The position numbers and the translations under genes are program-made. Of a DNA stretch of 41,805 nt, positions 34,443 to 41,611 are shown in pieces (position 1 is the stretch's first letter; every line of letters starts with the position of its first letter). The DNA is from a virus. Below the pieces are notes generated by a model. That model did no database searches. It had not been told where the DNA came from and saw nothing but the letters and a program-made list of their open reading frames with translations. The DNA is taken from IMG/VR virus record IMGVR_UViG_3300006749_000029, positions 1 through 41,805 of that record; one strand, written 5' to 3'.

Positions 34443-35027
34443 CTATATACCATTCAGCATTGTGTTAAGTTTCTTTTGAAAGGATTTGACATTCTTATAA
34501 CTGACTCTCTCTCTTATTGTTTTTACAATATCATCATACCTTTCATACTCCTGTAGTTGCGAATGTAAATATTTATTTTCTCTTTTCAAAGCGTTATTTA
34601 TAATTTTAAGCTCTAGCACCTCTGACTTTAGGTTGTTAATACTGCAGCTAACAAACTCCTCAACGCTCTCTTCTTGTAGTTCATACGTAGTTACATCGTA
34701 GTCAATCTTTTCGTCCATATCTTTTAGATATTGGCGACACTCATTGTAGTATTCTCTGAACAGCTTGTCGTGACTGTAGTATATCTCAAACATCTTAAGG
34801 CTGTGAATAACTGTAGCGTGATGCATACCTATTGCTAAGCCAATGTTTATTTTGGTATACCCCTCGTCAAGCATTATCTTACAGAAGATACTCCGAGCAT
34901 ATATGTACGGAGTAAGCCTTCTTTTTTTCTTTATATCTATATTGAAGTATCCATTCAATATAGCAATGAGCTTACTCTCTATATGCATATTCCTTTTAAT
35001 TGTTTTTGTGGTTTCTACTAAGTGCAT
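34443..35027 (-). CDS. DnaA domain IV-like DNA-binding protein with coiled coil (194 aa)
   Basis: Residues about 34-82 match the C-terminal DNA-binding domain of the bacterial initiator DnaA: RRLTPYIYARSIFCKIMLDEGYTKINIGLAIG followed by GMHHATVIHSLK, corresponding to the DnaA signature G.DHTTVxHA (here G67, H70, T72, V73, H75). The AAA+ ATPase that makes DnaA an initiator is missing entirely. Instead, residues 100-185 are acidic and helical, with a coiled coil (LKSEVLELKIINNALKREN) that may mediate dimerisation. It could bind DnaA-box-like or other repeats to control phage replication, or interfere with host initiation. A second ATG at 34988 (MHIESK) is a possible start. The upstream start overlaps the previous gene by 10 bases. 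Confidence 0.8.
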   Translation of the reverse strand: MHLVETTKTIKRNMHIESKLIAILNGYFNIDIKKKRRLTPYIYARSIFCKIMLDEGYTKINIGLAIGMHHATVIHSLKMFEIYYSHDKLFREYYNECRQYLKDMDEKIDYDVTTYELQEESVEEFVSCSINNLKSEVLELKIINNALKRENKYLHSQLQEYERYDDIVKTIRERVSYKNVKSFQKKLNTMLNGI

Positions 35028-37269: not shown

Positions 37270-39687
37270 TTAATTCATTAGTTTATACTGCGGGTCCACC
37301 TCGGGAGCCTTCTTTATTATTATCCATCGACCTGTTGAGTCTCGGCCCTCCTCAGGCTTGAGGCCCTCCTTAAACAAAGAGTATGCCACAAGCCACTGAT
37401 AGAACTTTGTCCTTGAGATTGTCATCTTCGCCTTGGGTCCGTAGTCAGGATACTCCTGTACAAAATCAAAGTACAGGTCCTGCTTATATAACTTAACACC
37501 CGGTATCAGATTCCTATTCTCACCCTGCCCATGCAACAGACCACACCACTCAATGAAGTCATGCGTTGTCTCTGCAGATAGCTGACGAACCTTTAGGTTT
37601 ACAAAGGCAGACTTGCGTAGCCCCTTCTTCAGATACATCTGAAGGCATCCTATCATGTAGTTGTCAAAGTAGCACCACTCCTCATCACTCCAATCTCCAA
37701 ACATCAGCTTACCAAACTCATCCAATGGGGTGTAGTTCTTGGTGTAGTGCTGATGCAGTTCCAACTCCCACTTCCTCCTAGCAAAGCTATTACCTGCACC
37801 CTTGATGGCATAGTTAGTTGTGATTGCAATCTTGGGTGACTTACTGAATGGTATCTTGATAGCATCCTTGTTCTTCTTCTCTAGTGTCAGACCCTCTGTG
37901 ACTACGCTAAACAATCGCTCGAAGTCAAAGTGTTTCTTCACGTCATCGAACACAAGTATCTGTGTGTCAGCACTTACAAGCTGATAAGCAAACGACCTCT
38001 CGAAAGCAAACGACTTGCCATCAATCGTCACTACCTTCTTCATCTTTGATAGTGCGTTCATAAATATCCCCTTGCCTGTACCTCCCTCGGGGTTGTCTGA
38101 TATCACCTCATCATTGAGGATTACAGCAGGGCAGTACGATAGGTTCTTGTGTGCGTGAAGTAGGAATCCAATCGTAGACTCCATACTATCTACCCTAGAC
38201 TCATGACCTGCACAGATGTTTGCTATGAACTTACGATACACACTATCGCTACCATCACATATCTTGAACACCCTATCAATGACGTGGTCCTTCCATACAT
38301 ACCCACCGAGGTCCAAGTAATCTATCGGTGTGACCTCTCCCTTTGTCACACGAACAGCACAGTTCTTGTAGTATAGGTATGCCGTGTCCTTGGTATCCTC
38401 GATGAAGTATATATCTATTGTAGATAGCAGTGTCAAGAAGTCCTCTCTGAACAATCTTGTTTGGTCTGCGAAGTAGTTGTATATGGACATATCATCCAAG
38501 TCAATGACGTGGTTTAGTATGAAGTCCTTAATCTCTTTCTCTGATGTGTGGTCGATGAGGTTGTTAGTAACCTTTACAAAGACATAGTTCTTGCTACCCT
38601 CGGGACAATACTTGTAGAACCCATTGTCCTCCAAGAAGTCCTTGAATAATATGTGAACAATCTTTATCGTACCCTTGTCGTTCTTTGACCAAAATACCTG
38701 CTTGGATTCATCATCTGCAATCCGATTCATTACTGAGTCTATAGTCCCACCATCTAAGTCTGACTCCTCTAACTGATGGCGTACCTCTTTTTTTGATACA
38801 CCCCTCCGTAGACTCTGCTTGATTGTATTGATAGCCTCCTCGTCCTCGTAATACTTAGTCCCAAAGTTCTGCGTGTTTCTATATGCCGAGTCAATCGTTC
38901 TTGATATCTCCTCCAATGAGAAGTCCTCATTGACAAACTGATTGAGTACATATCCTGCAAGGCTCTTGTTTATTCCATAGTCATTGAATGCCATAGCCAA
39001 TACGTACACGTTCTGATTTCTCTGTCCCTCAATCATCGGATACTTCTTTGTCCACCACTTGACTAGGATGTCCACCACCTTGTTCTCGTCTGTGATTGGT
39101 ATCGTTGGTGCATCTCGGTGTGCTACATACTCCTTGTACTCCACCTCCTCAATGGTGTCCCATATAGATGAGTTCTCATTGATAAATATTAGTGGGTCAT
39201 AGCTCTCGTAACATACACGACTAAGATTCTTACAGGTCTTGTCGAAGTAGTCTGAGTTGTAATGATTCTCTAGTGAGTTGAAATAGTTTACGTGGTTGTC
39301 CACATCCTGTGGTATCTTAACCAATACCTTTAGTCCATTCCCCGATGGAGATATGAATACAGAGTAGGTGTACTTGTCCTTACTGATAGACTCCTTGTCT
39401 TGCAGTAGGTCCTTCTGCTTCTCATAACCATCGAAGTCCAAGCATATCAATCCACTATGCTCAATGATTGATGAGTCGTTCCTCTTGTTGAATGTACCAC
39501 TGAAGCATACTGCAGGTAGGTTCTTCTTAATCTCGTTCCTCTCTGACTTGTTCTTCTCTGCTCGTATCTTCTTAACAAGCTCCTTGGATGAGCCGTCCTT
39601 TACTCTCTCAAGAATTTTATCTACTCCACGGTAGAAAGGAGTCTCTGTCTCCCTAATGTTTTTGAATATTGTGATGTTTGATGTCAT
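37270..39687 (-). CDS. Primase-helicase (VirE-N/BT4734-like, PriCT and SF3 helicase)
   Basis: This 805-residue fusion carries replication functions. Residues 55-125 are a VirE-N/BT4734-like domain of the archaeo-eukaryotic primase group: LPAVCFSGTFNKRND, CLDFDG with D84 and D86, and FISPSGNGLKVLVK (S113-K120). A PriCT-like helical region follows at about 200-290 (LAMAFNDYGINKSLAGYV). The C-terminal half holds an SF3 helicase: Walker A PEGGTGKGIF (K539), Walker B QILVFDDV (D581-D582) and sensor region KIAITTN. It would prime and unwind phage DNA. Its start lies 5 bases from the first of the paired TGTCGA sites of the adjacent intergenic region, which suggests that it or a partner acts on that sequence. 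Confidence 0.88.
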   Translation of the reverse strand: MTSNITIFKNIRETETPFYRGVDKILERVKDGSSKELVKKIRAEKNKSERNEIKKNLPAVCFSGTFNKRNDSSIIEHSGLICLDFDGYEKQKDLLQDKESISKDKYTYSVFISPSGNGLKVLVKIPQDVDNHVNYFNSLENHYNSDYFDKTCKNLSRVCYESYDPLIFINENSSIWDTIEEVEYKEYVAHRDAPTIPITDENKVVDILVKWWTKKYPMIEGQRNQNVYVLAMAFNDYGINKSLAGYVLNQFVNEDFSLEEISRTIDSAYRNTQNFGTKYYEDEEAINTIKQSLRRGVSKKEVRHQLEESDLDGGTIDSVMNRIADDESKQVFWSKNDKGTIKIVHILFKDFLEDNGFYKYCPEGSKNYVFVKVTNNLIDHTSEKEIKDFILNHVIDLDDMSIYNYFADQTRLFREDFLTLLSTIDIYFIEDTKDTAYLYYKNCAVRVTKGEVTPIDYLDLGGYVWKDHVIDRVFKICDGSDSVYRKFIANICAGHESRVDSMESTIGFLLHAHKNLSYCPAVILNDEVISDNPEGGTGKGIFMNALSKMKKVVTIDGKSFAFERSFAYQLVSADTQILVFDDVKKHFDFERLFSVVTEGLTLEKKNKDAIKIPFSKSPKIAITTNYAIKGAGNSFARRKWELELHQHYTKNYTPLDEFGKLMFGDWSDEEWCYFDNYMIGCLQMYLKKGLRKSAFVNLKVRQLSAETTHDFIEWCGLLHGQGENRNLIPGVKLYKQDLYFDFVQEYPDYGPKAKMTISRTKFYQWLVAYSLFKEGLKPEEGRDSTGRWIIIKKAPEVDPQYKLMN

Positions 39688-39691
39688 AACT

Positions 39692-39849
39692 GTGTCGATT
39701 TTATGTCGATTTTAATTTCTTAACTGTCTGATTATCAGAGGTAGTGTCGATAATGTCGATTTTCTTTTCCTATCGTAGATAAAATAAAAAATAAAAAAAA
39801 AGAATACTATATACTCTATATATAGAGAAACTTTTTCGACATTCGACAC
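39692..39849. repeat. Three paired GTGTCGA/ATGTCGA sites, candidate replication origin or operator
   Basis: This stretch between the primase-helicase start and the recombination operon has six TGTCGA sites arranged as three pairs, each GTGTCGA followed by ATGTCGA. Pair A is at 39692-39710 (11 bases between repeat starts). Pair B is at 39744-39760 (9 bases). Pair C is inverted at 39836-39849 (7 bases, halves abutting). Between B and C are an A-rich run (39779-39802) and the palindrome CTCTATATATAGAG (39814-39827). A further palindrome, TCTGATTATCAGA, is at 39727-39739. Iterons, an AT-rich stretch and a palindrome next to a primase-helicase look like a replication origin, but a repressor operator array is also possible. 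This also describes the 221-base gap at 39688-39908, which holds no gene I can support. Confidence 0.6.
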
Positions 39850-39860
39850 ACTTGATTGGT

Positions 39861-39886
39861 AGAAAAAGGGGAGTATCCTCCCCTTT
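39861..39886 (-). terminator. Rho-independent terminator of the recombination operon
   Basis: Read on the minus strand, AAAGGGGAG and CTCCCCTTT form a perfect nine-base-pair stem (39865-39873 with 39878-39886) around a four-base loop, followed by TTTTTCT. It lies 22 bases downstream of the SSB-like stop, so it ends the recombination operon. The primase-helicase operon must have another promoter. Confidence 0.9.
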
Positions 39887-39908
39887 GATTAACCAATAAA
39901 CACTAGTC

Positions 39909-40172
39909 TTAGAAGGGTAGTCCTTCCTCCTTAGCTTCTTTCTTAGGTGTGGCATCCTCGGTCTTTGCTTCGTAGGTATCTAGCTCTACGTAGTAGTTTC
40001 CACTTCGTGCTTGGTTCACATTGAAATTAATCCAACCGTTCTTCATGTGTTCCTTAACGAATGCCATAGCATCGTCCACCTTAAGTGATAGTCTCCCCAC
40101 TACAAACTCGGGGGCATTGTCTCTTCTCTTAAAAGAGAATCCATTAGCAAAAATTTTCTCGTCTTGTGACAT
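39909..40172 (-). CDS. SSB-like single-stranded DNA-binding protein (87 aa)
   Basis: A short OB-like protein: EKIFANGFSFKRRDNAPEF at the start, then FVVGRLSLKVDDAMAFVKEH and GWINFNVNQARSGNYYVELDTYEA, with alternating strands and a pair of aromatic residues for base stacking. The tail is acidic and ends KEEGLPF, much like the C-terminal (D/E)..LPF tip with which bacterial SSBs recruit partners. It is the last gene of the recombination cassette and is followed by a terminator. At 87 residues it is shorter than SSB, so it is likely a phage-specific single-strand binder. The tail is the strongest evidence. Confidence 0.65.
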   Translation of the reverse strand: MSQDEKIFANGFSFKRRDNAPEFVVGRLSLKVDDAMAFVKEHMKNGWINFNVNQARSGNYYVELDTYEAKTEDATPKKEAKEEGLPF

Positions 40173-40252: not shown

Positions 40253-40999
40253 TTATATCTCTTCCTTCACGTAGAAGTTCTGTATGTCTATGGTAGATTC
40301 CTCAGAGAAGAACTTATTGTACACCTCTATTGCTCGGTGCATCTTCTCCTTTCCTCTTGCATAGAAGTCCTCGTTACCCGTGAACATTCCCATACGTCCT
40401 GTCTTCTTCTCTATTACCAAGAACATCATCGGCTTACCGAATAGCAGTTGGTATATGTAGGCTTGACTATCGTAGTTGTACTTCCTTGCGTTCCACTTGA
40501 AGTCGTCAATGCTTGACGTTGTCTTAAGGTCTACGACATAATCTTTTCCAACGATGTCTGCCTTTCCTTTCCACTGTGTAAGGCTTTCTCCACACTTGTA
40601 AGTAACTATATTGGGTTGCTCAAATGTATTTCCCTTTGCGTGTATCAGCTCAAAGAAATCAAGGTTGCCCTTCATCTTATCCACCAATCCCTCTATGGTC
40701 TCTTTCTCTGTGCGTAGCAGTGCTACCTCCTTACCTGTCTCCTCAATGAACTCCTTGTATGTCTTGGTGTTGCGTGATGCAGCGTCTACCCACACCACGT
40801 CCTTAGCCTTCTCGGGTTCAAGAATCAACTGATGGAAGTACCTTCCCTCTGCAAAGTTCTTGTTGTCGGGACGTGATACCCCGAACTGCTCGGGGTCTTT
40901 GAGTAGTGTGCCGATGTCTGAGTTCGATAGGTACTGCTTACCAATACCCTTATAATACTGCGTGTCATCTCGCAGTAGAGTTATTACATTCTCATCCAT
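40253..40999 (-). CDS. PD-(D/E)XK exonuclease, RecB/PDDEXK_1-like (248 aa)
   Basis: The catalytic motifs of the RecB-type nuclease family are visible: H56 in GRYFHQLIL, D148 in KGKADIVG, D157-L-K159 in VVDLKTT, and Q179-x3-Y in DSQAYIYQLL. Two-metal cleavage of double-stranded DNA ends to leave single-stranded tails is expected. The gene sits 3 bases downstream of the annealing-protein gene, the usual exonuclease and annealase pair. It resembles the DUF3799/PDDEXK_1 family that often accompanies such annealases. It overlaps none of its neighbours. Confidence 0.9.
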   Translation of the reverse strand: MDENVITLLRDDTQYYKGIGKQYLSNSDIGTLLKDPEQFGVSRPDNKNFAEGRYFHQLILEPEKAKDVVWVDAASRNTKTYKEFIEETGKEVALLRTEKETIEGLVDKMKGNLDFFELIHAKGNTFEQPNIVTYKCGESLTQWKGKADIVGKDYVVDLKTTSSIDDFKWNARKYNYDSQAYIYQLLFGKPMMFLVIEKKTGRMGMFTGNEDFYARGKEKMHRAIEVYNKFFSEESTIDIQNFYVKEEI

Positions 41000-41002
41000 A
41001 GC

Positions 41003-41611
41003 CTATGATTTTAAAGCGTCTGCAATCTGCTTCTCTTGTTTCTTATTCACGTTATACTTCTGCTCTATGTTAGCTATCAACTGCTTGAGTCCAAGCTGTT
41101 TGTTCTCCTTGACGTAGTTAAGCATATCAAACATCTTGTCATCGGGTATGTCTGTAAGTGTTACGTTCTTCTTATTTGGTGTAGGCTTCTTCTTTGGTGT
41201 AGCCTTGACTTCTTCTTCGGGTACGTCCTCTCCTGTCCATAGCGACAAGCCTAGTCCATGCATTGCAATAGCCTTAGTCGTTGCTCTTTGAATGGTCTTG
41301 TTCACGTCAGTAGATGTTAGCTTGTCTACTGATATGGCATTGTTTCTAAAATCCATAACGGGAAGCATATCAATATGCTCTACATCATTGACTATGATAC
41401 CTACCTTTACCCATGCAGTCCTTCCATCCGTAAAGAAATTAAATCCTGTGTGGTCGTGTTCGTATATCACTCGTTGTGCATCGGGATAGTTCTGCTTGAG
41501 CAAATGCCATGCATTTGCCCACGATAGATAGTCTAGTCCTCCCTTCTTCTCTACCTTATCCCTTACGTTGATTGTTGATAGTGTCTTGTAACTTGATTGT
41601 GCTTTGCTCAT
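41003..41611 (-). CDS. Single-strand annealing protein (DUF1071/Sak-like)
   Basis: This 202-residue protein has the DUF1071 pattern: KGGLDYLSWANAWHLLKQNYPDA, then a beta region with FNFFTDGRTAWVKVGIIV and LPVMDFRNNAI, and the helix VNKTIQRATTKAIAMHGLGLSLWTGED. DUF1071 belongs to the Erf/Rad52-like annealing protein superfamily. A lysine- and proline-rich linker (about 140-150) leads to a C-terminal helical tail. It would anneal complementary strands made by the nearby exonuclease, allowing recombination, end repair or recombination-dependent replication. Confidence 0.88.
   Translation of the reverse strand: MSKAQSSYKTLSTINVRDKVEKKGGLDYLSWANAWHLLKQNYPDAQRVIYEHDHTGFNFFTDGRTAWVKVGIIVNDVEHIDMLPVMDFRNNAISVDKLTSTDVNKTIQRATTKAIAMHGLGLSLWTGEDVPEEEVKATPKKKPTPNKKNVTLTDIPDDKMFDMLNYVKENKQLGLKQLIANIEQKYNVNKKQEKQIADALKS

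Follow-up and report, generated by a model that had tools for sequence, protein, structure and literature searches.

A candidate two-copy, oriC-like replication origin preceding the primase-helicase gene in a metagenomic phage family

The Escherichia coli origin oriC combines a duplex-unwinding element (DUE), DnaA boxes of the form TTATnCACA and a single IHF site (PMC5742627), and the iteron origins of pSC101, P1, R6K and RK2 are built on iterons of 17–22 bp, with IHF being required in pSC101 (PMC4980987). For most uncultured phages the origins are undefined, and the phage family considered here has hundreds of members in metagenomes. The window that we have analysed, by which we mean the IMG/VR record in its full length of 41,805 bases, appears to be truncated, its near-complete relatives being about 55–64 kb in length. 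We propose, with a probability of roughly 60 %, that the gap preceding its primase-helicase gene is copy A of a two-copy, oriC-like origin, with phage proteins of the DnaA-domain-IV type as binders and a bend of the IHF/HU type. A two-copy element that is defined by its sequence, together with candidate binders of known fold, constitutes a directly testable origin.

A preliminary description of this DNA had placed six TGTCGA sites in this gap, arranged as pairs with spacings of 11, 9 and 7 bp of which the last is inverted, together with an A-rich run and the palindrome CTCTATATATAGAG, all lying between two minus-strand operons. Each of these features is present as described, the sites starting at 39692, 39703, 39744 and 39753 on the plus strand and at 39836 and 39843 on the minus strand, with the palindrome at 39814–39827 and the primase start at 39687 (Table 1). 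Matches to GTGTCGA or ATGTCGA number 12 in the whole 41.8 kb, where 5.8 would be expected by chance, and six of them fall inside 158 bp. The same description had suggested looking for paired sites near the primase genes of related phages, and these proved to be conserved across the family, albeit not in every particular: relatives retain the inverted pair along with spacings of 9 and 11 bp, but the 7-bp spacing varies from 7 to 10 bp, so that the shrinkage from 11 through 9 to 7, which had been singled out as unusual, is incidental. The palindrome is likewise not kept, and given this lack of conservation we have dropped both it and the shrinking spacing as functional signatures.

Table 1. Features of the gap before the primase-helicase gene and of neighbouring genes in the window
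Feature	Position	Strand	Basis or remark
DnaA-domain-IV and coiled-coil protein, cluster c16, candidate binder	34443..35027	-	Pfam and predicted fold
Primase-helicase (BT4734-like_N, PriCT_1, DUF5906)	37270..39687	-	Pfam; 421 relatives
Third 11-bp-spaced TGACAT, over primase start codon (ATGACA)	39681..39686	-	Site spacing
Tandem 11-bp pair AATCGACATAAAATCGACAC	39692..39709	-	Site pattern
IHF-consensus site AATCAGACAGTTA (consensus WATCARNNNNTTR)	39721..39733	-	Exact match
Tandem 9-bp pair, minus strand AATCGACATTATCGACAC	39744..39759	-	Most conserved part of element
TTATCGACA in 9-bp pair	39745–39753	-	Departs from DnaA box TTATnCACA at one position
AT-rich stretch, candidate duplex-unwinding element	39750..39829	.	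Duplex stability ranking
Inverted site pair GTGTCGAATGTCGA, 7 bp apart	39836..39849	-	Adjoins terminator of upstream gene; kept in relatives at 7–10 bp
Terminator-like hairpin AAGGGGAGGATACTCCCCTTTTT of upstream operon	39861..39887 (about)	-	Hairpin scan
Small conserved gene, last of upstream operon	39909..40172	-	C-terminal tip EEGLPF resembles SSB tail
Exonuclease VIII-like and Sak single-strand annealing genes, upstream operon	40253..41611	-	Domain/family search

The primase search of IMG/VR returned 421 relatives, 80 of which were kept, and MW202828 is the sole annotated GenBank phage at the primase distance of these relatives. More distant primase matches come from Flavobacterium and Maribacter phages and from those of other Bacteroidota, and MAG contigs with relatives bear the labels Flavobacteriales and Cytophagales, with three others labelled Aliivibrio. 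The distant phage matches and the Flavobacteriales and Cytophagales labels together suggest that the host belongs to the Bacteroidota. Read in the sense of the primase gene, the relatives share a conserved order that begins with the terminator of the upstream gene and continues with an inverted pair, GTGTCGAnATGTCGA; a middle stretch that is AT-, TATA- or T-rich; a tandem 9-bp-spaced pair, WAAATYGACATWATYGACAY; an IHF-consensus site; and a tandem 11-bp series that runs up to the ATGACA at the primase start, the start codon reading ATGACA in most relatives. A terminator-like hairpin stands at the same place in most of them; in the window, the terminator scan gave the 39861–39887 hairpin on the plus strand only, and the minus-strand form was obtained with a separate script. 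The pattern of the 9-bp pair matches 35 of 40 relatives, often twice, and the reversed-pattern control gave near zero.

In the 9-bp pair the second site, TTATCGACA, fits TTATnCACA at eight of nine positions, the one change being C to G at position 6 (TTATCCACA being the form in which that G is swapped for C). Exact TTATnCACA boxes were not found, the best 9-mer being TTATCGACA itself. Most relatives have G at position 6, some have A there, and position 5, which is free in the DnaA box, is likewise free (C or T) in sites of this type. The locus thus resembles oriC in having an AT-rich unwinding region beside DnaA-box-like 9-mers, boxes in both orientations and, as judged by sequence, an IHF site that separates the box groups. 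It differs in the box itself, in carrying some seven sites within about 170 bp, in its two copies 8–12 kb apart, in phage proteins that have domain IV only and lack the AAA+ domain, and in being followed by a phage primase-helicase. The orientation of E. coli R1 to the AT stretch is also opposite to that of the 9-bp pair here, and this, like the inexact box and the missing AAA+ motor, speaks against the oriC-like proposal.

Of all 80-bp segments in the window, the AT stretch has the lowest duplex stability, and it ranks first in 8 of 12 sequences; by this measure an AT-rich candidate DUE lies beside the boxes. Between the 9-bp pair and the 11-bp series the motif TNATWATCARnnnnTTA is conserved. 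Exact WATCARNNNNTTR, the IHF consensus as used for example in PMC8407004, occurs in 31 of 52 dereplicated A gaps (mean of 1.6 and maximum of 5 in shuffles) and on the opposite strand in only 3 of the 52, with the proviso that the specificity of Bacteroidota IHF/HU proteins may differ from this consensus. The IHF consensus, rather than a -10 box, probably accounts for the strongly conserved TCA...TT columns that come after the sigma-70-like match described below.

Copy B falls outside the window and was seen in the relatives. In the 12 near-complete genomes copy A precedes the primase gene, and copy B lies 8–12 kb off beside a divergent phage GroEL gene, with the same architecture and the same genomic orientation as copy A. 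The GroEL that flanks copy B is a Cpn60 with GroES adjoining (Pfam). A gene-blind scan of viral_contigs for the pattern gave, among the 80 loci listed, 37 A copies in sense with the primase, 40 B copies with GroEL antisense and 3 that are unclassified. In loci seeded with c25, one of the two DnaA-domain-IV proteins discussed below (n=79), the strict A pair is found in 52 of 72 with a primase and the B pair in 36 of 46 with GroEL, and elsewhere in these loci there are only 10 such pairs in 1.34 Mb. Nearly all of the c25-seeded loci fall into this same primase family, and we have therefore not retained this search as an independent clade test. The right side of the element points toward the primase at A and toward leftward genes or terminators at B, where in one clade it faces a leaderless 22-aa micro-ORF; since the right-side neighbours differ between A and B, the form of the element is kept while its transcriptional setting changes.

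Two smaller observations concern the surroundings of copy B. Each of the 12 near-complete relatives encodes the GroEL/GroES pair (clusters c24/c23; e.g. L131, G005 53637–55504), and the window ends before this pair. The 22-aa micro-ORF (M-x-I-x-I-x-x-YLYILIMI-like) lies about 100–140 bp to the right of B in G004, G005, G007, G012 and G020 (e.g. at about 15655–15825 of L131); a TAnnTTT(G/A) box stands directly before its start codon, in a manner like that of leaderless mRNAs.

The position of copy A invites a regulatory explanation, in which the element is an operator or promoter module through which a phage regulator (the DnaA-IV protein, c22 or c30) switches the primase operon and the GroEL/early genes. 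Copy A fills the space from the terminator to the primase ATG, so that it must either include the primase promoter or have it close by, and some of the conservation of copy A may thus be regulatory. Copy B similarly adjoins the GroEL promoter, and in the clade with the micro-ORF that reading frame starts to the right of B; a sigma-70-like TCGACA-17-GATAAT overlaps the 9-bp pair in the window, and c22 weakly matches a transcription regulator. We nevertheless regard such a module as unlikely to be the explanation of the element. Relative to the main flanking gene, the long architecture is placed one way at A and the opposite way at B, and a module of this kind has no need for the least stable DNA of the genome or for an IHF site between the arrays. 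At B, host-type promoters are external to the element, 10 of 12 genomes having the canonical Bacteroidota box TAnnTTTG of the GroEL promoter beyond its limits, and at A they are not enriched, TAnnTTTG being found in 6 of 52 gaps versus 6.0 in shuffles. The sites are moreover absent from other early and late promoters: a PWM scan for a regulon gave, for 12 of 13 sequences, 0–2 intergenic sites beyond those at A and B, MW202828 being the exception because of its separate palindromes. Those palindromes aside, PWM sites cluster only at A and B, and the regulon hypothesis was dropped.

Cumulative GC skew had been put forward in the preliminary description as a check on an origin in the gap, and here the expectation fails, with the minimum lying near copy B and never near copy A (0.6–2.2 kb from B and 7–10 kb from A in 12 of 12 genomes). 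These minima track gene-strand switches and gene orientation, not the elements, and since they follow the strand switch near B the skew is not decisive. Taken at face value, it would favour copy B, which is near the divergent junction, as the only origin, with A serving as a titration, timing or regulatory site, a proposal that overlaps with that of an origin at both copies. We consider this version quite improbable, as the skew here follows transcription, and A has the less stable duplex in most genomes and the same full set of sites. For the two-copy origin, then, the earlier proposal of an origin is partly supported. It is strengthened in substance by the family-wide conservation, the DUE-like AT stretch, the IHF-consensus site, the DnaA-box-like sites, the two DnaA-IV proteins and the second copy, which also changes the question; on the other side are the distance of the skew minimum from copy A and the unconserved spacing and palindrome, and the operator alternative keeps some probability.

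An element that occurs as two direct copies and has inverted sites inside it as well as an IHF-like site is, in outline, also reminiscent of att or res sites, and it could in principle serve site-specific recombination, partition (parS-like) or packaging. This we hold to be very improbable: among the families identified, no recombinase, ParB or packaging gene adjoins A or B, the copies adjoin the primase and GroEL genes and not terminase, and no genome was noticed, in casual and not systematic observation, from which the intervening 8–12 kb had been deleted.

The two-copy origin gains further plausibility from two phage proteins, c16 and c25. The DnaA-like protein to which the preliminary description had drawn attention, which is the c16 of the window, is confirmed as such by its fold: the c16 model (pLDDT 81.6, with the N-terminal part above 90) matches the DnaA DNA-binding domain structure 3pvp (TM 0.85 on target), 1j1v and the basal unwinding system structure 8btg. 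The c25 model (pLDDT 91.5), which was made without one row from the GenBank phage record, matches the same three structures. With a Bac_DnaA_C cut-off of 31.5 bits, relatives score 39.2 (c16) and 38.1 (c25), and the c16 of the window falls below it at 19.8 bits. Members of c16 are 136–194 aa in length and comprise domain IV and a coiled coil, and those of c25 are about 100 aa and comprise domain IV only; AAA+ domain III, the initiator motor, is absent from both. By HMM, c16 is found in 11 of 12 relative genomes, and in the twelfth, MW202828, it is annotated and lies beyond the stretch that was fetched; c25 is found in 12 of 12, its gene lying upstream of sak in the relatives, beyond the end of the window. 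The two proteins may be cognate to sites of the TTATCGACA type. A comparison of site position 3 (G or A) with the recognition-helix residues of c16 and c25 gave a signal that is dominated by relatedness, the A-type sites coming from few lineages. No precedent for phage DnaA-domain-IV origin proteins was found in the openly accessible literature, and others may exist.

From these components we infer protein binding at the sites, unwinding, helicase loading and a start of replication along the following lines. The c16 protein of the window and the c25 protein of the relatives would bind sites of the TTATCGACA type in the two tandem series (9 and 11 bp) and in the inverted pair, and would most likely decorate the sites that flank the AT stretch and the IHF site. 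A host protein of the IHF/HU type would introduce a bend at WATCARNNNNTTR, which separates the two series, and so fold the complex; the AT stretch would then open, and the phage primase-helicase would load there and recruit, or hand over to, the host polymerase. No phage DNA polymerase was found among the window proteins scanned. It is possible, and we offer this tentatively, that the family has taken the DnaA DNA-binding domain without its motor, in the form of two proteins, with a box re-coded by one base, two alike origins and opening by the primase-helicase; with the box re-coded in this manner, host DnaA would not compete. If this is true, a phage can split the origin-recognition part of DnaA from the motor and shift its code away from that of the host, which would bear on the evolution of initiator specificity and on tools for Bacteroidota vectors.

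As a side observation, the small conserved gene at 39909–40172 encodes an 87-aa protein that has no family match in Pfam or PHROG, and its acidic tip, which is like the SSB C-terminus, makes it a candidate for an ssDNA-binding protein encoded by the Sak/exonuclease operon.

The locus shares with the iteron origins of plasmids and phages its short tandem sites, its AT-rich region and its spacing by helical turns, as well as the use of IHF seen in pSC101. It differs from them in that its sites are of 9–11 bp and the DNA-binding fold is that of DnaA domain IV, and a Rep winged-helix initiator was not found, no replication protein that was scanned giving a match to a Rep family.

Among described phages, the cultured Flavobacterium phage Elemovirus elemoF 6-3D shares with the family a distant primase, GroEL/GroES and the overall genome plan. 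Neither a DnaA-IV protein nor a TCGACA 9-bp pair of the family type was found in it, and with only a loose likeness at its junction it was dropped as a cultured carrier of the element. Its divergent junction (L287 18125–18425) has 11-bp-spaced TTTAACA repeats and TTGATTTTCAGATAGTTA, loosely resembling the 11-bp series with an IHF-like site, and it may represent the element in diverged form within a cultured phage. MW202828 (Podoviridae sp. ctfjg026, Manatee Spring) is like the family in its gene order and in having both copies, in variant form, and two of its genes are annotated as dnaA/chromosomal replication initiation; it differs in that the 9-bp pair at A is TAACATAATCAACAT and in having extra 16-bp palindromes in the early region. 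The perfect 16-bp palindrome GTGTCGTTAACGACAC is present 14 times in this phage (43745–55169 of the record; L146 and nearby), with 13 of the copies within about 43.7–51.8 kb, several of those in the early region being 20–40 bp before start codons and some being intragenic. Other relatives have palindromes of their own, including GTGTCTTTAAAGACAC five times in G036, sequences like GTGTCTTCAAAGACAC about 10 times in G037 and sequences like GTCTCTTCAAAGAGAC about eight times in G025, and these sets look like genome-specific early operators or stoperators.
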